In this document: positions 2,500 through 16,547 of the stretch, in pieces | Numbering within the stretch: position 1 is the stretch's first letter | Layout: every line of letters starts with the position of its first letter | Source: a virus | Length of the DNA stretch: 37,090 nucleotides | Direction: 5' to 3' (one strand) | IMG/VR virus record: IMGVR_UViG_3300037882_004002 | Span: 1-37,090 of that record | Position numbers and translations under genes: made by a program | The notes under the pieces: model-generated | What the model saw: only the letters and a program-made list of their open reading frames with translations | Databases searched by the model: none | What the model was told of the DNA's origin: nothing

Positions 2500-4311
2500 A
2501 TGCCAGCACAATCGTGGTTACCCGTAACAAATTCCAAAACATATACTCTTAATAATGGCAGTCTTAGTCCATCGATTACAAACGTAGATGTAACGATAAA
2601 TGATTATGCCATGTATTTGAACTATGTTTATTCTGATTATCGTTTGCAAAAGGTTTCAAACTATATCAATTATGTTACAAATTGGATGAACATTGCAGCC
2701 TTTCCAGACTTTACAGTTCCTTACACTCACGGAATGGCATACAGTTACACGCCAGTGTTTCAAAACCAAAGTTTCTTAGTGAATGGCAATTATACTTTTC
2801 GAACAAACTATATTATTCAAGGCTTAAATAATAACACAGGTGAATGGGAAGATGTCGAAACGTATTACTTTGATATAATTTTGAATGTTACCAATGTGGC
2901 TTCAAATCCAACACCAACATTCGCTCCATCAACACTTAGATTCAACCACCAACAAAATCAAACATTACCATCAAATCTCGTGGTAATGAACGGTAACAAT
3001 TGGAAAATCATTGGTAAACCTAATTTTGTTTTGACCTCGCCAACCGTTGGCGTTACAATTGCTTCTACTGGTTCTGGTACATCTGCCTATCAAACCATTT
3101 CAGGTTCTGGCAGTGCTTTTATTTATGTTGCATTAGGAAGTTTCTATGATAGTGAAAGCGTATTTGTTCCCGCTGATCTTACTGGAGATTTTGAAATTCA
3201 AAATAGTAATGTATATTTTGGCCAAGTCAATTGGACTGTCGCTGTAGTTCGCCTTTCCGATTTTCTTACCGTTCCTTATTTATCAGGCGAAAAAGCTTTT
3301 ACATTGGATCAAAAGTATTTTGAATTCAGTTCTCAAAACCTTGGTACTTACTTTCAATTTGACAGTGAAATCAAAACCTATGATTTCTTTAACAACACCG
3401 AAAATGTATTTACGGTTCCTCAAAAAATAGTTTTGTTTCAAGGAAAATCAAAAGTAAATCTAGGACAATTAATTCATCGCCTAATGCGAAAGTTTCCAAT
3501 TGTAAACGAATCTACTTTTCAAAACCAATTGGCTACATTAAACATCAGTTGCAAAGAAATTCTAGCTGCAGACGAAACTGTAGTTCGTGCCGGAACTAAA
3601 TCAAATATAAAATTTGTTGCCGGTCTAAGCCGTGGCATTACTGATTTAGGCTTTCTAGACTTCAATCCATTGCCCAATCGGGGTACAAAAAACGGGTTCG
3701 CCATGCTCAATATTTTGTACCCTACTGGTAATTATGAATTTAGAATATTGAAAAATGGAACTTTGGTTTCGGCTCAGGCGTTGCCAGCATCAAATAATAT
3801 TATTGTTTTCAAAAAAGTATCTTTTGCTGCTTTCAATCAAGGCGATATAATCCAGTGCGTTGTGGACTTCGTTGGTCAGAATAATTCATCAGCACCAAAA
3901 AAGACTTTTAAATTGTTTCCCGTTGGGAATTATTCCAATACCATAGTTTGGGAAAATGAATTTCTATTGCAATCAGTTTTGGAATGCACCGGAACGGCTT
4001 CTATAAAATCGGATTTTGAATTCCTTTCTCAAAAAGTTTATCAAAATTTGGTTGAAGTTATTGAACATTTTTCTTCTTCCAAAGAAGTGAAATTGTTCAT
4101 CAATACAGGTTGGCTTCTTAAAACCGATGTCGATACTATCGAAAGCTTGATGCGTTCGAAACGGGTTTGGCTTTTAAATAACACTGGAAATATTGCATTG
4201 CGACCAGTAGCAAAGCCAATTATTAATGAGGATTTAGAAAGAGAATTAATCGAGTTCAGCCTTGAATTCATCATAAACCGAAACTACGATGAGGAAACTT
4301 ATTCACTCTAA
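2500..4311 (+). CDS. Tail structural protein, probably distal tail
   Basis: A 603-residue protein I do not recognise by motif. It is Thr/Ser/Asn-rich with alternating beta-type hydrophobic patterning and no signal peptide or long hydrophobic helix. Residues about 130-240 look like an Ig-like or fibronectin-like beta domain. It lies directly after the tape measure gene, and its 3' end overlaps the next gene by 23 bases. Genes in this position in siphoviruses encode distal tail or tail-tip components, so that is the inferred role. The start ATG at 2500 lies 4 bases after the tape measure stop, consistent with translational coupling. Confidence 0.6.
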   Translation: MPAQSWLPVTNSKTYTLNNGSLSPSITNVDVTINDYAMYLNYVYSDYRLQKVSNYINYVTNWMNIAAFPDFTVPYTHGMAYSYTPVFQNQSFLVNGNYTFRTNYIIQGLNNNTGEWEDVETYYFDIILNVTNVASNPTPTFAPSTLRFNHQQNQTLPSNLVVMNGNNWKIIGKPNFVLTSPTVGVTIASTGSGTSAYQTISGSGSAFIYVALGSFYDSESVFVPADLTGDFEIQNSNVYFGQVNWTVAVVRLSDFLTVPYLSGEKAFTLDQKYFEFSSQNLGTYFQFDSEIKTYDFFNNTENVFTVPQKIVLFQGKSKVNLGQLIHRLMRKFPIVNESTFQNQLATLNISCKEILAADETVVRAGTKSNIKFVAGLSRGITDLGFLDFNPLPNRGTKNGFAMLNILYPTGNYEFRILKNGTLVSAQALPASNNIIVFKKVSFAAFNQGDIIQCVVDFVGQNNSSAPKKTFKLFPVGNYSNTIVWENEFLLQSVLECTGTASIKSDFEFLSQKVYQNLVEVIEHFSSSKEVKLFINTGWLLKTDVDTIESLMRSKRVWLLNNTGNIALRPVAKPIINEDLERELIEFSLEFIINRNYDEETYSL

Positions 4312-6124
4312 ATTTCAATTGGATTTATCCATTTACAAAATTTCAGATACCGAAGAAAACAATTGGTTTTCGGATGCTTTCTTTACAAAATATTCGTTTC
4401 CTTTTGAAATCGATTTGATAGACGATTTGGATATTGCCTTTGAATTTATCTCGCAATACAATACCAATCCACAAACCTATTACGAATGTCAATACGTTCA
4501 TAATAACAAAATCGAAGATGCTATTTTCGAAATAGAATCGCACCAGGAGAAACTAAGTTGTACGGTTCGTTTTGGTTTTGAACAGTTGCCAAGTTTTGAC
4601 AAAAAGCTATCTGAATTGTCTTTGGAAAAATTCGATTTACCATCTGGAACAACAATTTTTCAGCATGCGCAAACCATAATTACACAATCATTTCCAGCGG
4701 TTAATTACAACTTTCCGCAAATTCATATTGACAAATATGATCCTACGGACGATTTATGGCCCAATTTTCAGAACATCATTAACAATCGTGTTGATGGTAC
4801 TTTTTTGATAAACGAAGTTATAATGGACGAAACGTTTAACAGAAATGTAATGCAGCCTCTATCCTATTGGATTCACATTCTACAACGAGGAATGATTGAC
4901 AGCGGCTATACATTGGCTGGAAAAATAATGAACGACGAGCGTTTGAAAAAAGCTTGTCTCTTTGGCGATGTCGATTATTTTAAAGCTGCAACGGTTCAGG
5001 AAGACATCATCATCACGAAAATGTCCGAAGATGCTATTGAGATTAATTACAACAATAGCCGTGGCGAAAAAGCCTCCAAGTATTATTCAAACACTGTGCT
5101 AACCACACCAGGGAAATACAATATTAGCGGAACTATAAAGTGTTTGAAAGCTGCAAGGTTCTCAACTTACTTTAGAATCAAATATAGAAACACAGTTATT
5201 TGGTCTCAATCATCTAAAAATGTTGGACTTTTTCGAGGTTCTGAATTTGCCGATTATGATGTAGATATTGACTTTGAAACTATTGTAGATGCAAATGCGA
5301 ACGACATTACTATCGAAGGTTACCAATATTTCACCGAAGAAGAAGTTATAATTTCATTATCCATAAGTTGCATCCGTTTGCATGACAATTCAGGAAACGC
5401 AGTGCCAACCGTTATCAATGAAAACAAAGTAGATCTTACTAGAGCTGTGCCCGACATGACTTTTGCAGAATTTGTAAAAGTGGTAAAGAATTGGTTCAAT
5501 TATGACTTGACAATTATTGGCAAACTCGCCATCATGAATCCAATCGAAGAAGAAATCAATTACAATGAACTAGTAGATTTGCAGTTTTCTGAAATCAAAA
5601 GACCGAGGCGAAAGTTCGGTCAAGGTAAATCCTTTTTACTGCAATTTCAAGAAATTGAAAACAAAGATTTCAAATTTCTGCCTGTTTTTCACAATCAATC
5701 TGGAATAGTAAATTCTAATTATGTCACCGATGACAAAACCACCACAATAGAAATTAATGGTTTGCCGTTGCCGTTGTTTACCAGAGAAGGAGTTCAAACG
5801 GCTTATGCATTGGAGCAAAATAGTAGTAAAGCCTATTTGGTTTGCTACGATGGTTTGTATAATGGAAACAATTTGGCTAAGCCAAATGACAACTATCTCG
5901 TTCCAGCGGTTCATATTGCGTACTGGCAAAAATGGTTTAACTATCGCATTAACGCACCGGCATTCAATTGGCAGTTCAAAACGTGGAATGAGTTTGTTAG
6001 TAATTTAAAAGTGAAAACAAAAATCTTTGCTTACAATAGAATCCACATTATCAAAACCATCAACAAAACCGAAGTTAAACCCGATTCGTTTGAGATTGAT
6101 ATAGAAACCGAAGCGTTAGAATAA
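4289..6124 (+). CDS. Tail-tip or baseplate-like structural protein
   Basis: A 611-residue protein, last gene of the left tail operon. The N-terminal 130 residues (MRKLIHSKFQLDLS onward) and a middle beta-rich region around 260-370 suggest a multi-domain structural protein; no enzymatic motif is visible. Its ATG lies inside the end of the preceding gene (23-base overlap). Its last 9 bases overlap the end of the convergent integrase gene, so no terminator can lie between them without being inside coding sequence. Position after tape measure and distal tail suggests a tail-tip or baseplate hub protein; this is inference. Confidence 0.55.
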   Translation: MRKLIHSKFQLDLSIYKISDTEENNWFSDAFFTKYSFPFEIDLIDDLDIAFEFISQYNTNPQTYYECQYVHNNKIEDAIFEIESHQEKLSCTVRFGFEQLPSFDKKLSELSLEKFDLPSGTTIFQHAQTIITQSFPAVNYNFPQIHIDKYDPTDDLWPNFQNIINNRVDGTFLINEVIMDETFNRNVMQPLSYWIHILQRGMIDSGYTLAGKIMNDERLKKACLFGDVDYFKAATVQEDIIITKMSEDAIEINYNNSRGEKASKYYSNTVLTTPGKYNISGTIKCLKAARFSTYFRIKYRNTVIWSQSSKNVGLFRGSEFADYDVDIDFETIVDANANDITIEGYQYFTEEEVIISLSISCIRLHDNSGNAVPTVINENKVDLTRAVPDMTFAEFVKVVKNWFNYDLTIIGKLAIMNPIEEEINYNELVDLQFSEIKRPRRKFGQGKSFLLQFQEIENKDFKFLPVFHNQSGIVNSNYVTDDKTTTIEINGLPLPLFTREGVQTAYALEQNSSKAYLVCYDGLYNGNNLAKPNDNYLVPAVHIAYWQKWFNYRINAPAFNWQFKTWNEFVSNLKVKTKIFAYNRIHIIKTINKTEVKPDSFEIDIETEALE

Positions 6125-7300
6125 ACTATCAATGAGGAATATTTCAGCATTGGCATCAGCCTGAACGATGTGTGAGTAAATCATCGTCTGGTTGATGTCC
6201 GAATGTCCTAACAACAATTGCAATTTTTCGACCTGTCCTCCAGCTCTCAAGAAAGAAGTTGCAAAAGTATGTCTCCCAACATGGAAAGTTACTTTCTTAT
6301 GGATTTTCAAAACTGCCATGATCTTTTTCAGTTCATCATTAATATGTTGGTCGGCAAACTTCTTTTCAAAAAGTAGCGGTTCGTGCTCCAAGATTTCTCG
6401 AGCTTTCATATTCATCTGAATATTTTGATCTTTCTTCGTTTTTTTTGACACAAACGAAATGTAGTTGTCAATAAAATTATTTCTTCTCAAACTCTGAATG
6501 TCTGAAATGCGCAAACCGGTCATACAGCTCACAAGGAAATAACCCAATATCAATCGATACGAATCACTAATATAAGGACTGAAATAATATCCTACACAGC
6601 GTTTCAGTTCTGCTGTGGTTAGGCTGGTTCTGTTGCCTCTTGTGCTTCCAACCTTTATTTCATCAAGATTTACACTTAAACGAATACCAGCCTTTGCGGC
6701 CAATGCTAGAAACTTTTTAATGGCTGCAATGTTTGCCGAAACTGTGGTACTTTCGTTGCCTAATCCTCGATGATGCTTGATGAACCTATCAAACCAACCA
6801 TGGTCAATTTCCTGAAAGGTAACATCGTCATCATAAAGTTTCAACTTTCGCAAAACTGATTTATAGCGTTGGTATGATCCTGGTTCCATCAACACCTTCT
6901 CCTCTTCCAGCATCATATCAAAGAAAGCCGTAAACCGAACACGTGGCATTCCGTTAAGGAATTCTTTCTTCAAAGCTTCGGGCGTGAGTACTCTATCAGC
7001 AAGGCGATAAGAAGTTTTTATTGCTGTCAGTTTAGATTTAATGTTGTCTAAAATCAAGTTGGTATCTTGATTTTCTTTTGACAAAGGAAGCAAACGTTCC
7101 TTCTTTAAATCCCATTCTTTCGGATTCACATTTATATTAAGTGAAATCCTTTCTCGCTTGTAGTCACCAGTCAAATGTAAACTGATTGGCGATTTTCCAT
7201 CCGCATTTTTATAGTTGCGAATACTAAATTTATCTTTCATTGACACATAGATTTTGTTTGTGTCAACGAGTGTGTCAAAAATCCTTTCGGAAGTATTCAT
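6116..7300 (-). CDS. int: Tyrosine recombinase (phage integrase)
   Basis: Catalyses site-specific integration and excision of the phage. Visible order (numbering from the start chosen here): Arm-type DNA-binding region at the N-terminus (FSIRNYKNADGKSPISL, then NVNPKEWD), SAM-like core-binding domain in the middle (LMEPGSYQRYKSVL), catalytic domain at the C-terminus. Catalytic residues seen: Arg in TGLRISDI (about 263), Lys in SKKTKKD, HxxR in HVGRHTF (about 341), LLGHSD and the nucleophile Tyr in MIYSHI (about 374). The reading frame extends to 7333, but those first residues (MFFNFF) are encoded by the T-run of a terminator, so an ATG at 7303 or 7300 is more likely; 7240 is also possible. 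Convergent with and overlapping the tail gene by 9 bases. Confidence 0.95.
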   Translation of the reverse strand: MNTSERIFDTLVDTNKIYVSMKDKFSIRNYKNADGKSPISLHLTGDYKRERISLNINVNPKEWDLKKERLLPLSKENQDTNLILDNIKSKLTAIKTSYRLADRVLTPEALKKEFLNGMPRVRFTAFFDMMLEEEKVLMEPGSYQRYKSVLRKLKLYDDDVTFQEIDHGWFDRFIKHHRGLGNESTTVSANIAAIKKFLALAAKAGIRLSVNLDEIKVGSTRGNRTSLTTAELKRCVGYYFSPYISDSYRLILGYFLVSCMTGLRISDIQSLRRNNFIDNYISFVSKKTKKDQNIQMNMKAREILEHEPLLFEKKFADQHINDELKKIMAVLKIHKKVTFHVGRHTFATSFLRAGGQVEKLQLLLGHSDINQTMIYSHIVQADANAEIFLIDSLF

Positions 7301-7330
7301 CATAAGGCTGTCAATAAAAAAGTTAAAAAA

Positions 7331-7383
7331 CAAAAAAGCGCACTATACTTGGTCTCACGACCTGTATGTGCACTTGTTTTTTA
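7331..7383 (-). terminator. Bidirectional rho-independent terminator between repressor and integrase
   Basis: Bases 7336-7348 pair with 7364-7375 (12 pairs with one bulge and one mismatch), and inside them 7351-7354 pairs with 7359-7362 (GGTC/GACC). T-runs follow on both strands: on the minus strand opposite 7324-7337, on the plus strand at 7377-7382. On the minus strand it would end the repressor transcript, so integrase is probably transcribed separately or by readthrough. Confidence 0.7.
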
Positions 7384-12304: not shown

Positions 12305-12817
12305 ATGACTGTAGATAAAAATTTTCAAACACCAGAATGGGTTGCAGAATATATGGTTTCAATGTTGCCTGCAGGAGCAAAAACAATTTTAGAACCAACA
12401 CCAGGAATAAGAACAATTGTAAATGTTTTAGAGAAAAATAATTACACCGTTGTCACTCCAATAGATTACTTCTTACTAGAAAAACAGCAATTTGATGCAA
12501 TCGTTATGAATCCACCATTTTCAAGTAAGACTGCAGATATAACCAATGCGCCAAAAGACACTGATATCAGTGGAATGAAAATAGGATATTTCATTTTAAC
12601 TGATTGTATGAAAATGTCAGATACAATCATTGCTTTAATGCCTTGGTTCACTATTCCAGATAGTGATGTTCGAATGAGAATGATTCGAGATTTTGGACTA
12701 AAATCAGTAACTCCATTACCTCGTAAAACATTTCAATACGCAAGAATTCAAACGGTAATCTTAGAATTACAAAAAGGATATAAAGGGGAAACCGAATTTA
12801 AAACACATTTAATATGA
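12305..12817 (+). CDS. Small N6-adenine DNA methyltransferase-like protein
   Basis: 170 residues. Motif I-like LEPTPGIRTI (about 30-39) and catalytic motif IV NPPF (Asn at about 69, in AIVMNPPFSS) are those of adenine-N6 methyltransferases, in the order expected of that fold. It is short and has no obvious target-recognition domain. Phages use such enzymes to modify their own DNA against restriction. It overlaps the next gene by 4 bases (ATGA). Confidence 0.8.
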   Translation: MTVDKNFQTPEWVAEYMVSMLPAGAKTILEPTPGIRTIVNVLEKNNYTVVTPIDYFLLEKQQFDAIVMNPPFSSKTADITNAPKDTDISGMKIGYFILTDCMKMSDTIIALMPWFTIPDSDVRMRMIRDFGLKSVTPLPRKTFQYARIQTVILELQKGYKGETEFKTHLI

Positions 12818-13173: not shown

Positions 13174-13449
13174 ATGGAAATCACAGCAGTTATTAAAAGA
13201 ATCGAAGCCACAAGAACCGTAGGCGCAAATCAAGATTTTAAAATTCGTGACCTAATCGTCACCACAGATGAGCAATATCCTCAAACCTTGAACATCCAGT
13301 TCGTTCAAGCCAAGTGCGAGGAACTGGATAAGTTCGCACCAGAACAAAAAGTAAAGATTGACATCAATCTCCGAGGCAAAGAAACCGTAAAGGACGGCAA
13401 AACATTAGTGTTCAACACCATTCAAGGATGGAGAATTCAAGGTGTGTAA
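13174..13449 (+). CDS. DUF3127 protein, probable single-stranded-DNA-binding-like protein
   Basis: 91 residues, recognised as DUF3127 by the pattern KIRDLIVTTDEQYPQ, NIQFVQAKC, GKETVKDGK and WRIQ. These Bacteroidetes proteins are predicted OB-fold-like and usually lie in phage or plasmid replication regions, so an SSB-like role is likely but unproven here. The next gene starts within its stop codon. Confidence 0.85.
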   Translation: MEITAVIKRIEATRTVGANQDFKIRDLIVTTDEQYPQTLNIQFVQAKCEELDKFAPEQKVKIDINLRGKETVKDGKTLVFNTIQGWRIQGV

Positions 13450-13625
13450 TGTATTGCTACAACGAAATAAGAGTAGTTTTTGCCAATTGCAGAAACGATA
13501 TAGAGTTAGAAAAAATCTGCGATGCTTTATTGATGATCATTGACGACGGCGATTTTTCAGAAGGACTAGAAAAATATACAAGATTACAAGCACACGTTAG
13601 ATTCAGACAACTAAAATGTAGTTAA
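13449..13625 (+). CDS. Small hypothetical early protein
   Basis: 58 residues (MYCYNEIRVVFANC onward). The ATG at 13449 overlaps the preceding stop by one base (taATG) and is preferred to an in-frame ATG at 13428 inside the previous gene. It has alternating charged helices (DIELEKICDALLMIIDDGD) and no known motif. The next gene starts 2 bases after its stop, so it belongs to the same operon. Confidence 0.6.
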   Translation: MYCYNEIRVVFANCRNDIELEKICDALLMIIDDGDFSEGLEKYTRLQAHVRFRQLKCS

Positions 13626-13627
13626 CC

Positions 13628-14119
13628 ATGAAACTATTAGAAGTACGCTCGGCACTCAAAAGAGCCGCAAAAGAAGATTTGTTTACTGGAGAAATTTATA
13701 CAATGCACGCAAAACAAGGCATAAAAGACAACAATACCGTTTTCTATAGAGATTTAAAAACAGGACAGTTCCAAGGACCACACACCTTATTTTCCAATGG
13801 TTACTTTGCGGAAGTATACGCCCAAATGTCCTACGGAATGATAGGCGTTATTGTTCCAATGCCAAATGTCGTAACCAATGAAATCCTTTTTGACCTAGTG
13901 CTGCGCGAAGCTTCTATAGATGATCTAAAAGATACGCCACGCCACATCAAACTGAACCGTATTTATTATACGTATGATAGCCACATTCTTCTGGGGCCAT
14001 TCTACACCGACAATAGCACTACAAGTTTATACTTAGAAAACTTAGTCGCAAAGAATCAAATATTTGTCCCGAATGAAAGACAGCATTTTAAGAAAAGGGA
14101 AATGAAGAGAGTGGCTTAA
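13628..14119 (+). CDS. Hypothetical early protein
   Basis: 163 residues, mixed alpha/beta, not recognised. GPHTLFSNGYFAEVYAQMSYGMIGVIVPMP in the middle suggests a compact globular domain; the C-terminus is basic (HFKKREMKRVA). Last gene of the replication operon before the cassette region: its stop codon overlaps the left arm of the first attC-like site, so the insertion point is directly at the gene end. Confidence 0.6.
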   Translation: MKLLEVRSALKRAAKEDLFTGEIYTMHAKQGIKDNNTVFYRDLKTGQFQGPHTLFSNGYFAEVYAQMSYGMIGVIVPMPNVVTNEILFDLVLREASIDDLKDTPRHIKLNRIYYTYDSHILLGPFYTDNSTTSLYLENLVAKNQIFVPNERQHFKKREMKRVA

Positions 14120-14256
14120 CGTTCTCGTGCTTGGCGAGGTTCAAGGAAAGTAAATCCCGATGCTTCGGTTCAAGACCAAAATTAACAAAAACAAACAGAA
14201 TTTTAAATTAATAACTAATCCTTGAATCTTGCCAAACACGTGTTATGTGAGGTTGT
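14113..14256. other. attC-like folded site A (left boundary of cassette 1)
   Basis: AAC at 14118-14120 and GTT at 14242-14244 are the outer cores. Inside, CGTGCTTGGC (14126-14135) pairs with GCCAAACACG (14231-14240) with one mismatch, and TTCAAGG (14140-14146) pairs with CCTTGAA (14220-14226). The outer spacing is asymmetric (5 bases on the left, 1 on the right). The layout resembles an integron attC site of about 125 bases. Cassette 1 begins at GTTATGTGAGGTTGT (14242-14256). Confidence 0.55.
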
Positions 14257-14277
14257 GGGTAATTAAAACAAAATGTG

Positions 14278-14556
14278 ATGAGTATAGGAATGGACGGATT
14301 TGATGCTTATATGCCAAAAGAAGAAATTATAAGTAAATCAGAAGAAATAAAATTAATTAGAAAAGAACTGATTGATAAATATAACATCAAAACAGATAGA
14401 GATTTAATAAAACAATTAGGTATTACAGAAGAAGATAAAGGAAAATTATTTACTTGGATTAGATACCAATGTGCTTTTAGTTATCGAGAGGGTTTTGATA
14501 ACGGGCAAGATGAATTGAGATACGCTCTTAACGACCTATTAACACCAACAAGATAA
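14278..14556 (+). CDS. Cassette 1 gene 1, hypothetical
   Basis: 92 residues, highly charged and Lys/Asp-rich: SEEIKLIRKELIDKYNIKTDRDLIKQLG looks like a helical DNA-binding-like segment, and GFDNGQDELRYALNDLL ends the protein. No family is recognised. The start is ATG 14278; GTG 14275 lies directly before. It is the first gene of the cassette bounded by sites A and B, and its stop overlaps the next ATG (taATG). No promoter was seen within the cassette. Confidence 0.55.
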   Translation: MSIGMDGFDAYMPKEEIISKSEEIKLIRKELIDKYNIKTDRDLIKQLGITEEDKGKLFTWIRYQCAFSYREGFDNGQDELRYALNDLLTPTR

Positions 14557-14792
14557 TGTGCAATATAGTAGTAATAAATAAAGGAGAAAAAGAAATTGCA
14601 ACACCAAGAGAGTTTTTAGAACATTTTGGATTTTATCCCGATTACGACACTTGTTTTAAAATATCATTAGATGAATGTTTATGTAATTGCGATATTGAAA
14701 AAGAATTGAAAAGAAACAATATACTTTTTAAAACGGATTGCGGAGATATTTATGTAGGAATGTTGGAGGATGTTGTCGGTGATGACGATTAA
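14556..14792 (+). CDS. Cassette 1 gene 2, hypothetical
   Basis: 78 residues, acidic, with five Cys (CNIVV at the start; ECLCNCDIE and KTDCGD later) that could bind metal. Not recognised. It overlaps the upstream gene by one base and ends 1 base before the complementary cassette terminus at 14794-14808, so both cassette genes lie tightly between the two attC-like sites. Confidence 0.5.
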   Translation: MCNIVVINKGEKEIATPREFLEHFGFYPDYDTCFKISLDECLCNCDIEKELKRNNILFKTDCGDIYVGMLEDVVGDDD

Positions 14793-14793
14793 A

Positions 14794-14930
14794 ACAATCT
14801 CACATAACGTTATCTCGCTTGGCGAGGTTTGGGGTTGAAACCCTATAATTTCTAATTTAAAATAAAATACGATGAAAAACGATATAAAGGAAAATCCCAA
14901 ATCTTGCCAAGCGAGTGTTAGCGGTTGTAC
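14794..14930. other. attC-like folded site B (between cassettes 1 and 2)
   Basis: The left part, ACAATCTCACATAAC (14794-14808), is the reverse complement of the start of cassette 1 (14242-14256) with one mismatch. The inner stem CTCGCTTGGC (14814-14823) pairs perfectly with GCCAAGCGAG (14906-14915); further in, TTTGGG (14828-14833) pairs with CCCAAA (14896-14901). The right core GTTAGCGG (14917) begins cassette 2. Spacing is 5 bases left and 1 base right, as in site A. Confidence 0.6.
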
Positions 14931-15075
14931 GGGTAATTTTTTAACCGAAGCTGTAAAATCCTTGGTTTATAAAACACCTCAAAAAGTTTTAGAGTATGTG
15001 GAAAAACATAAAAATGATTTTTTAATTAAAAACCCATCTTATGCAGTTTGCGACCGAATTACAAAAAATAACTAA
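14872..15075 (+). CDS. Cassette 2 short open frame, doubtful
   Basis: 67 residues. The first 15-20 residues (KENPKSCQASVSG) are encoded by the right half of attC-like site B and look like translated recombination-site sequence. The rest (TEAVKSLVYKTPQKVLEYVEKHKND) is helical and could be a real small protein. Its 3' end overlaps the start of the MTase-like gene by 35 bases. It may be a leader frame rather than a functional gene. Confidence 0.35.
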   Translation: MKNDIKENPKSCQASVSGCTGNFLTEAVKSLVYKTPQKVLEYVEKHKNDFLIKNPSYAVCDRITKNN

Positions 15076-15748
15076 CCGCCACCACCAAAGTCAAATATTT
15101 GATGACTTTTTGCAAATGGCAGTTTGCGCTTATTCATTAGGGAAAAGCGAAGAACTTTATTTTGATATAGCAAAAAAATACAATGCCGAAGAAATAAAAG
15201 GATTTGCTAACGCACTTGGTGGATTAGTTTTAGACCACGAAAAACAAAACAATTCAGGAGAATGGAAAGACTTTTTAGGAAATTATTTTGAAGAATTTGG
15301 GCAAAATAATGCGAAAATGGGGCAGTTTTTTACACCTGTATCAATTTGCAATCTGATGGCTGATTTCACAAATGACGACCTTAAAGAAGAAAGAATGTCA
15401 GTTAACGACCCTTCTTGTGGAAGTTCACGAAATCTTATTGCACACGCAATGAAAAACCCAAATAACAGAATGAAGTTTTTTTATGTAGGACAAGATTTAG
15501 ACCGAAGATGCTGTTTGATGTCGGTTTTAAATTTCGTAATGTTCGGGATGTCTGGAGTGATAATATATATGAATTGCCTATCGCTTGAAATTTATGGCGG
15601 ATGGAGAATTTATTTACCTGAAACACTATTAGGCGTTCGACCTTTATCAATTAGTGAGTGCAATGAGTTTTTATTTGAACCAAAGCAAAAGCAAGAAGAA
15701 CTACCTGTTTTAATAGAAAAATTTCCATTAACCCTTTTTGACCAATGA
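15041..15748 (+). CDS. N-6 DNA methylase-like protein, cassette 2
   Basis: 235 residues. An N-terminal helical domain (residues 1-85) precedes a SAM-binding fold. GQFFTPVSICNLMA (about 90-103) matches the TPxxIxxLM segment of type I/N6 methylases, and NDPSCGSSRNLIAHA (about 127-141) is motif I. The catalytic NPPY/F motif expected later is not visible; YMNCLSLEIYGGWRIY stands in that region. It may therefore bind SAM and be catalytically altered, or use a divergent motif. It overlaps the next gene by 4 bases. Found inside a cassette, it may be a mobile anti-restriction or defence-linked gene. Confidence 0.7.
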   Translation: MQFATELQKITNRHHQSQIFDDFLQMAVCAYSLGKSEELYFDIAKKYNAEEIKGFANALGGLVLDHEKQNNSGEWKDFLGNYFEEFGQNNAKMGQFFTPVSICNLMADFTNDDLKEERMSVNDPSCGSSRNLIAHAMKNPNNRMKFFYVGQDLDRRCCLMSVLNFVMFGMSGVIIYMNCLSLEIYGGWRIYLPETLLGVRPLSISECNEFLFEPKQKQEELPVLIEKFPLTLFDQ

Positions 15749-16296
15749 CAATAAAAATTTATGATAAGTTTTGGATGGACGAAAATGGAAATGTTTATTC
15801 AGGCGATAGAAAAATAAAACCGTATTTATCGAGAGGTTATTATCAAATTATGATAGGTAGAAAATGCACATCTTATGGAAAATTAATTGCAACCTATTTA
15901 GTTTACAATGAAAACCAATACGAGCGATTAACTTACATTGATGGAAATCCAACGAATTGTATTCCTTCAAATTTAAAATGGGTTTCGGAAGAAGAATATA
16001 ATAAAAAACAATCTCGAACAAAGGCAAGAACTGATTTGAATTTTGTGCCTGATTTTGATTATTTCAACAATGTTTTTCTTGACGCTTATAAAGACATGAA
16101 GGGCGAACGAAAATATTTTTTATCTGGAAAAGTATATTTACAAATGTTTGAAAAATTTGTACGTGGTGGAGTAAAAAATTTAAGAGCAGAAATTTTCATA
16201 ATGTATAAATTTTCTATGGGTCAAGAAAGACGAGAAATGGAAGATAAAAGAATAGTCGATTTAGAAAAATATTTGACTTATGAAAATGTTTGGTAG
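15745..16296 (+). CDS. HNH/NUMOD-like protein with degenerate active site, cassette 2
   Basis: 183 residues. The N-terminus (YDKFWMDENGNVYSGDRKIKPY) looks like a NUMOD-type DNA-binding start. YERLTYIDGNPTNCIPSNLKW (about 59-79) aligns with the HNH core of phage homing endonucleases (usually HHIDGNxxNN..NLxW), but the catalytic His positions are Thr/Tyr, so nuclease activity is doubtful. The C-terminal 90 residues are helical and basic and not recognised. It overlaps the MTase-like gene by 4 bases and ends just before the cassette's complementary terminus. Confidence 0.6.
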   Translation: MTIKIYDKFWMDENGNVYSGDRKIKPYLSRGYYQIMIGRKCTSYGKLIATYLVYNENQYERLTYIDGNPTNCIPSNLKWVSEEEYNKKQSRTKARTDLNFVPDFDYFNNVFLDAYKDMKGERKYFLSGKVYLQMFEKFVRGGVKNLRAEIFIMYKFSMGQERREMEDKRIVDLEKYLTYENVW

Positions 16297-16322
16297 TATA
16301 ACCGCTAACTATTCGCTACACG
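16296..16322. other. Truncated attC-like half-site C (right end of cassette 2)
   Basis: GTATAACCGCTAAC (16296-16309) is the reverse complement of the start of cassette 2 (14917-14930) with one mismatch. A 5-base spacer and a left-arm-like stretch (GCTACACGC) follow, but I find no matching right arm with GTT in the next 250 bases, so the site appears truncated where it joins the phage backbone. Confidence 0.5.
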
Positions 16323-16328
16323 CATAAA

Positions 16329-16547
16329 ATGTATTACAAAATGCCAAAACTACTAACAAAAACAAAGGTTATCCGCATTTCAGAAAGCCAACTAAAAACA
16401 CTTCAAAAAATGAAGTCTTACAATATAGATGTTGGTCAATTTATTCGTGATGCAATCAAAGAAAAAATCAACAGGGAGTATAAAGAATTACTTCCTAAAC
16501 CTAAAAAACAATACTGTCCGTTCAGTAACGGAACAATAGAAATTTAA
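16329..16547 (+). CDS. Ribbon-helix-helix-like small DNA-binding protein
   Basis: 72 residues. KTKVIRISESQLKTLQKMKSYN with IDVGQFIRDAIKEKINREY has the beta strand plus two helices of a ribbon-helix-helix protein (VIRIS strand, F-IRDAI second helix). Such proteins are transcriptional regulators or antitoxin/relaxosome-type DNA binders. ATG 16341 (MPKLL) is an alternative start. The next gene starts after 15 bases in the A-rich context aaaaacacc-ATG. Confidence 0.6.
   Translation: MYYKMPKLLTKTKVIRISESQLKTLQKMKSYNIDVGQFIRDAIKEKINREYKELLPKPKKQYCPFSNGTIEI

Follow-up and report, generated by a model that had tools for sequence, protein, structure and literature searches.

The stretch of DNA analysed in this study (the window) is a 37,090-base IMG/VR virus record, IMGVR_UViG_3300037882_004002, that contains an integron-like cassette locus; around this locus, the window is related to phages of Flavobacterium psychrophilum that belong to the genus Unahavirus. 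Two gene cassettes, two folded sites resembling the attC sites of integrons and a putative attI-like junction lie between two backbone genes, with open reading frames (ORFs) and features as follows:

13628-14119, plus strand: left flanking backbone gene, with a weak phrog_21169 match
14117-14245, plus strand: attC-like folded site 1 (TAAC at 14117-14120, spacer GTTCT, arms 14126-14147 and 14219-14240 around a loop, spacer T, GTTA at 14242-14245)
14242-14808, plus strand: cassette 1 (GTTA...TAAC), with ORFs at 14275-14556 and 14556-14792
14805-14920, plus strand: attC-like folded site 2 (spacer GTTAT, arms 14814-14836 and 14893-14915, spacer T, GTTA at 14917-14920)
14917-16309, plus strand: cassette 2, with an N6-methyltransferase-like gene and an HNH-like gene
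15041-15748, plus strand: methyltransferase-like ORF of 235 aa (Pfam N6_Mtase, 3e-11; phrog_5696, 9e-42)
15745-16296, plus strand: HNH-endonuclease-like ORF of 183 aa (phrog_59, 2.5e-12)
16306-16339, plus strand: attI-like block, TAAC followed by TATTCGCTACACGCATAAAATGTATTACAA, at the junction of the last cassette and the right backbone, delimited by comparison with 26 IMG/VR relatives and the Unahavirus phages
16329-16547, plus strand: right flanking backbone gene, phrog_25647 (unknown function), which served as the anchor

An initial annotation of this DNA had proposed cassettes with self-complementary ends, folded sites with inner arms, GTT/AAC cores and matching 5/1 spacer asymmetry, and a methyltransferase-like and an HNH-like gene as the cargo of cassette 2. 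The two cassettes with their folded sites are confirmed, each element being present where it had been placed, and the cargo assignments are backed by the Pfam and phrog matches given above. Cassette 1 starts with GTTATGTGAGGTTGT (14242-14256) and ends with ACAATCTCACATAAC (14794-14808), which pair at 14 of 15 positions; cassette 2 starts with GTTAGCGGTTGTAC (14917-14930) and ends with GTATAACCGCTAAC (16296-16309), which pair at 13 of 14. Among all GTTA/TAAC pairs in the window that lie 100-2500 bp apart, these two rank in the top three by pairing. Both sites have TAAC and GTTA cores with spacers of 5 and 1. A site finder using the pattern TAAC-spacer-stem-spacer-GTTA returned 2 matches in the window against 3 summed over 100 dinucleotide shuffles, and 46 plus-strand matches in 27 phage loci (430 kb) against 0-2 per shuffle; a pattern search of the window with a stricter arm design found nothing. 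Folded site 1 scored 100 bits with model R1, to whose training set it belonged, and folded site 2 scored 77 bits, while the DNA fold z-scores on the plus vs. the minus strand were -4.0 vs. -3.0 for the first and -5.3 vs. -3.2 for the second. Additionally, a 67-aa ORF (14872-15075) begins in the loop of folded site 2 and extends into cassette 2, and an ATG inside the fold loop is also seen in several cassettes of other phages.

Both window sites conform to a design of 126 nt, a 20-bp stem and 5/1 spacers that recurs across the sites collected in this study. The commonest length among 208 distinct sites is 126 nt, and 106 of them have 5/1 spacers; by another count, the spacers are 5 and 1 in 108 of 183 sites and close to these values in the others. 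The alignment of the 106 sites shows strong covariation in the stem, with all four Watson-Crick pair types at most of the 20 positions, and certain pairs are nearly fixed or recurrent: pair 6 is T-A in 105 and pair 14 is G.T in 102 of the 106, while G.T occupies pair 11 in 60% of them and C.A occupies pair 5 in half. Because of the G.T wobbles, the plus (ORF) strand folds better in the phage sites. When a neutral score treating G.T and A.C alike was applied, the strand bearing the long 5' spacer proved richer in G.T than in A.C in 38 phage sites, no phage site showed the opposite bias, and the corresponding numbers for bacterial sites were 76 and 9; the folding energies of the window sites are consistent with this asymmetry. 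The preference agrees with that of integrons, the predicted best-folding strand being the 'bottom' strand in canonical orientation.

Comparison with other phages corrected the initial layout in one respect: the elements themselves stood, but the fold preceding a cassette travels with it and the last cassette abuts the backbone directly. The mobile unit of cassette 1 therefore covers about 14117-14808, and this interval (cassette 1 plus the preceding fold) is 99.7% identical to positions 1252-1944 of another phage locus, L007; the identity stops at the cassette borders, the neighbors differ on both sides, and the right backbone is again similar from 16304 on (91.7% identity). In the F. psychrophilum phages 6H, 1H, FPSV-D15 and FPSV-F7, a series of fold-plus-cassette units occupies the same location. 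A cassette starting with GTTAGGGAATCGG is found in all four (twice in 6H), preceded by the same or nearly the same fold and followed by different neighbors; in one of the 6H copies, the fold start is replaced by host DNA. Since shared units end at the same borders across phages, the unit can be defined as fold plus GTTA...ORF...TAAC with its junction at TAA^C, and these comparisons show that it is exchanged intact between phages, between conserved flanks. Its opposite strand reads as an integron layout (G^TTA...AAC-hairpin). The alternative that these sequences are a fixed backbone was checked and does not hold, as related phages do not keep them constant. Across 203 cassettes, the mean pairing of a cassette's own start and end is 10-11 bp, compared with about 5 bp with the start of the next cassette; because the end pairs better with its own start than with that of the neighbor, circularization would rebuild a fully paired site. 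A separate observation is that L014 (IMG/VR 3300020045_010465) carries a second array on the opposite strand, with sites near 4.1-5.8 kb, besides the array by the right flanking gene.

The array lies between two junctions with the backbone. On the left, the TAA stop codon of the flanking gene (14117-14119) overlaps the left recombination core TAAC, and in the F. psychrophilum phages the left backbone gene, a homologue of window positions 13428-13625, likewise ends in TAA/TAAC ahead of the first fold; an IMG/VR scan with the left flanking gene gave 0 relatives. The right flanking gene has 26 relatives in IMG/VR, most of which show a different cassette end closing with TAAC and then a block resembling TAYTNGCTAACRCYTATAAATGTATTACAA ahead of this gene. 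The Unahavirus phages likewise have another last cassette that closes with TAAC at the same point before a similar block, and 6H, FPSV-D15 and FPSV-F7 have three distinct last cassettes joined to an identical right backbone, TAAC followed by GTATAGATTTCACTC.

Sites of this type also form arrays in Bacteroidota chromosomes. Genome contig matches to a 21-base site pattern are almost exclusively from Bacteroidota, with a few from other phyla, and a covariance model trained on 48 sites found sites in 171 of 199 Flavobacterium genomes and in 0 of 94 Gammaproteobacteria; a model built from these sites also recovers the same sites in other phages. An array-type integrase is present in 118 of the 199 Flavobacterium genomes, 111 of which also have sites according to our comparison of the two lists. 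This integrase is linked to the arrays: 39 sites lie in 11 of 16 integrase loci, whereas the 12 Xer loci taken from those genomes contain none, and the arrays are located 3' of the integrase gene in a single orientation, with one marginal exception (a weak match, L311). In 6 of 9 loci analyzed, the last cassette ends 50-122 bp from the stop codon of int, and in five further Flavobacterium loci this distance is 97-107 bp; in the remaining loci, the nearest detected cassette is 0.7-5 kb from the integrase gene, and short or weak sites were probably missed in these gaps. Many chromosomal loci thus have an attI region next to the integrase, whereas the phages have an attI-like block and no integrase beside it. 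Several further occurrences were noted. A Chryseobacterium plasmid carries the array integrase, annotated as 'site-specific tyrosine recombinase/integron integrase'; large Flavobacterium chromosomal arrays (the L359 region, G117:C1, about 206-231 kb, and G221:C2, 152-182 kb) resemble sedentary chromosomal integrons in their spread, one end being marked by an int gene or int fragment; and two very large viral-called IMG/VR contigs, G431 (310 kb) and G425 (170 kb), which may be huge phages or chromosomal sequence that was misclassified, have sites together with a related tyrosine recombinase.

Comparison with profile models and phylogeny showed the array integrase to be a tyrosine recombinase related to IntI, but not IntI itself. 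It matches the IntI model TIGR02249 in two stretches with the middle missing, and 0 of 48 array genomes reach the cut-off of 265, whereas controls with true IntI match in a single stretch at 418-492 bits. Like IntI, the array integrase has a KGxKDR stretch free of the Xer indel and a tail of the form SPxDxL; the IntI-specific insertion before patch III is lacking, with 186-191 residues between two aligned landmarks vs. 227-229 in five true IntI. In the tree, IntI forms a fully supported clade with the array integrases outside it, and the grouping of the latter with IntI apart from Xer is weak (0.53). Two chromosomal array integrases scored 213 and 229 bits with NCBIfam NF040815 (XerA-like 'site-specific tyrosine recombinase/integron integrase'; cut-off 220), so annotation pipelines already give some array integrases this name; within open-access PMC text, to which all literature negatives in this study refer, no paper was found tying NF040815 to Bacteroidota cassette arrays or phages. 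A close relative of the array integrase occurs in just 6 of 49 viral records, and most array-bearing IMG/VR records have no tyrosine recombinase, although such records may be fragments. The window matches the definition of a cluster of attC sites lacking an integrase (CALIN), with two sites and no array-type integrase within 37 kb. This is in agreement with the initial annotation, which had noted no integron integrase, and the only tyrosine recombinase is of another type:

6116-7333, minus strand: phage/CTnDOT-type tyrosine recombinase with Arm-DNA-bind_5 and SAM_5

Combined, these comparisons favor, with a probability of about 0.82, reading the region as a two-cassette integron-like array that a flavobacterial phage carries at an attI-like site dedicated to it, drawing on a phage-specific cassette pool and served by a host integrase; the host enzyme would act in trans because the window encodes no array-type integrase. 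Integron-type cassette logic, which had been suggested for the locus from the outset, is supported by own-end pairing, folds at the junctions, flanks that stay conserved around changing cassettes and an IntI-like neighbor of the sites in Bacteroidota chromosomes; identity with a canonical integron fails on the integrase domain, the spacers and the ORF direction.

Viral and chromosomal cassettes differ in the direction of their genes. Measured against the fold strand, ORFs of at least 60 aa within cassettes read forward in 126 of 129 viral cases and backward in 61 of 66 chromosomal cases (Fisher p = 1.3e-40, an optimistic value because related cassettes were counted separately unless identical). 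Chromosomal cassettes therefore keep the normal integron polarity, with the ORF reading away from attI and attC after the ORF (61 of 66), whereas the viral ones are flipped (3 of 129 with the normal layout, and the window without it), their genes following phage transcription toward attI. The cargo differs as well. DNA methyltransferases make up about a third of 75 sampled viral cassette proteins (18 N6_N4_Mtase, 3 C5 methylases, 2 MT-A70, 2 Dam and 1 N6_Mtase, the window's own), and two further proteins match a DNA-glycosylating family; among 61 chromosomal cassette proteins, the commonest match is the GmrSD restriction endonuclease, followed by one or two matches each to Schlafen-helicase, DarT, SLATT, RES, beta-lactamase and nucleotidyltransferase, and no methyltransferase family is among the 25 families listed for them. 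From these protein families, we infer a counter-defense role for the viral cassettes. Additional observations on cargo were that the chromosomal nucleotidyltransferase matches belong to aminoglycoside/lincosamide families (cassette ORFs in L160-L278, L299-L314 and L359-L378), that a viral cassette for a class I tRNA-synthetase-like protein (L128, 3896-5149) stands beside a C5-methylase cassette, and that the window has a separate methyltransferase-like gene outside the array in the early region (12305-12817; phrog_799, 2e-10).

The same data bear on the view that the cassettes are ordinary captured cassettes, a CALIN formed by accidental passive pickup from host chromosomes without any phage platform. 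Host arrays with the same site type are common and phage CALINs have been published (PMC9892861), yet the opposite ORF polarity (126:3 viral vs. 5:61 chromosomal) makes simple passive capture unlikely. The best-matched Pfam families differ between viral and chromosomal cassettes, the right junction, with its conserved block, is constant across many phages, and a comparison of the window cassettes with 249 Flavobacterium genomes gave no full-length match, just fold-like fragments and short matches.

Modular exchange through homologous recombination between similar folds, with no site-specific recombinase, would account for some of the junctions and is quite unlikely as the general explanation. 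Adjacent folds are similar, FPSV-D15 (L002) has a hybrid fold at 178-303 in which the start of one site is fused to the middle of another, and at 2721-3600 of phage 6H (L003) a host-derived fragment of cytochrome c oxidase subunit I (ctaD) separates a truncated cassette gene from the second copy of a different cassette, one junction falling within the fold. The shared cassettes, however, end at TAAC beside non-homologous neighbors, both between the window and L007 and between D15 and 6H (locus positions 1354-1693 and 1597-1936), and this explanation leaves the own-end pairing and the integrase beside chromosomal arrays unaccounted for.

That the phage's own tyrosine recombinase moves the cassettes is very unlikely: it is the sole such enzyme in the window, but it is of the phage/CTnDOT type rather than the array type, and PF00589 proteins are altogether missing from the complete, array-bearing phage P12002S; on these two grounds it was rejected as the cassette recombinase. 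The view that the folds are transcription terminators or other intergenic RNA structures that only resemble recombination sites is scarcely tenable, since, intergenic and stable as these hairpins are, an Rfam search gave no match, a loop of about 60-70 nt without a subsequent T-run is unlike a terminator, and this view leaves unexplained why the end pairing is specific to each cassette, why the cores are fixed and why an integrase is linked to the sites.

Under the preferred reading of an integron-like array served by a host integrase, the two ends of an excised cassette circle would meet, pair and rebuild a full attC-like hairpin on the plus strand; for cassette 1, the expected circle junction is CTCACATAAC joined to GTTCTCG. 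A host chromosomal integrase acting in trans would then recombine the hairpin at TAA^C beside the 16306-16339 block. With the polarity of the strand fixed and phage genes transcribed toward attI, a cassette would be useful to the phage only if its ORF is flipped, and the predicted result is a phage-specific pool rich in genes for DNA modification, by which host restriction would be evaded.

Several points weigh against this reading. The array integrase lacks a domain without which IntI does not recombine attC; integron recombination is described as requiring this domain (Messier and Roy 2001, cited in PMC9668308; also PMC8138268), although the insertion is incompletely conserved in an integron-like subgroup (PMC8138268). 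The array integrase may therefore not use a folded single strand. No array-type integrase is encoded in the window. The conservation of the attI-like block may come partly from the start of the right gene, and the block is only loosely similar to chromosomal attI regions, so that homology between the two was considered and retained as a weak resemblance. An exactly empty site, joining about 14112 to 16323 as had been anticipated, was not found among the relatives compared. Some junctions fall inside folds (the FPSV-D15 hybrid and 6H ctaD), and other recombination therefore also acts here. Finally, the whole case rests on sequence comparison.

The resemblance to integrons (IntI, attI, attC) extends to the inverted-repeat site with R and L boxes, the AAC and GTT cores, the complementary R''/R' ends of each cassette, the chromosomal ORFs that read away from attI and, at many loci, chromosomal arrays whose start is no more than about 50-120 bp away from the gene of an IntI-related integrase. 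Integron attC sites, e.g., attC aadA7, have two roughly symmetric unpaired central spacers, in contrast to the 5 and 1 seen here, and the uniform 20-bp stem with G.T at pair 14, the large loop and the 9-15 bp end pairing are further differences, as are the array integrase without the IntI-specific insertion, the flipped viral ORFs and the viral records that mostly have no such integrase. On comparative grounds the locus behaves like an integron, but because the integrase domain, the spacer geometry and the phage ORF polarity differ from those of integrons, membership in the IntI integron family proper was rejected.

Integron components have previously been reported by Qi et al. 2023 in 21 phages, including a methyltransferase-bearing CALIN in Polaribacter phage P12002L, whose attC2 recombines with IntI1/attI1 in E. 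coli (PMC9892861). That CALIN and the present arrays have in common an integrase-less array in a flavobacterial phage with DNA methyltransferases among the cassettes. In the sister phage P12002S, the array is directly followed by a gene homologous to the right flanking gene of the window (57% identity). Mixed attC directions were attributed by Qi et al. to mosaicism (PMC9892861). Our scan of P12002L found ORFs and sites on one strand, as in the phages studied here; their text mentions no Flavobacterium phages, fixed attI-like junction, polarity rule or Bacteroidota integrase. IntegronFinder 2 listed one complete integron in Bacteroidetes proper, that of Salinibacter ruber (PMC9024848). No description was found of a Bacteroidota cassette system, of a domain-less integrase of this kind or of a viral polarity rule, and the Flavobacterium platform, the reversed polarity and the domain-less integrase appear to be new to the literature.

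Taken further, and with less assurance than the local reading, the comparisons make it fairly probable that Bacteroidota phages take part in a cassette-exchange network with a dedicated attI-like dock and a virus-only, reversed pool of DNA-modification counter-defenses, moved in trans by a host integrase of a non-IntI integron lineage that lacks a supposedly essential domain and recognizes a different hairpin. Bacteroidota have been thought nearly integron-free, yet most sampled Flavobacterium genomes carry the sites and over half carry the integrase. This integrase lies outside the IntI clade, which raises the question of whether the IntI-specific domain is truly needed for such recombination. 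The viral sites appear to serve counter-defense, with cassettes flipped for phage transcription and rich in methyltransferases, enzymes that could shield virus DNA from host defenses, while the sampled host cassettes contain defense and resistance genes. If this is true, cassette exchange would be a currency common to both sides of the arms race, and the viral arrays would offer a direct route to mining anti-defense genes.

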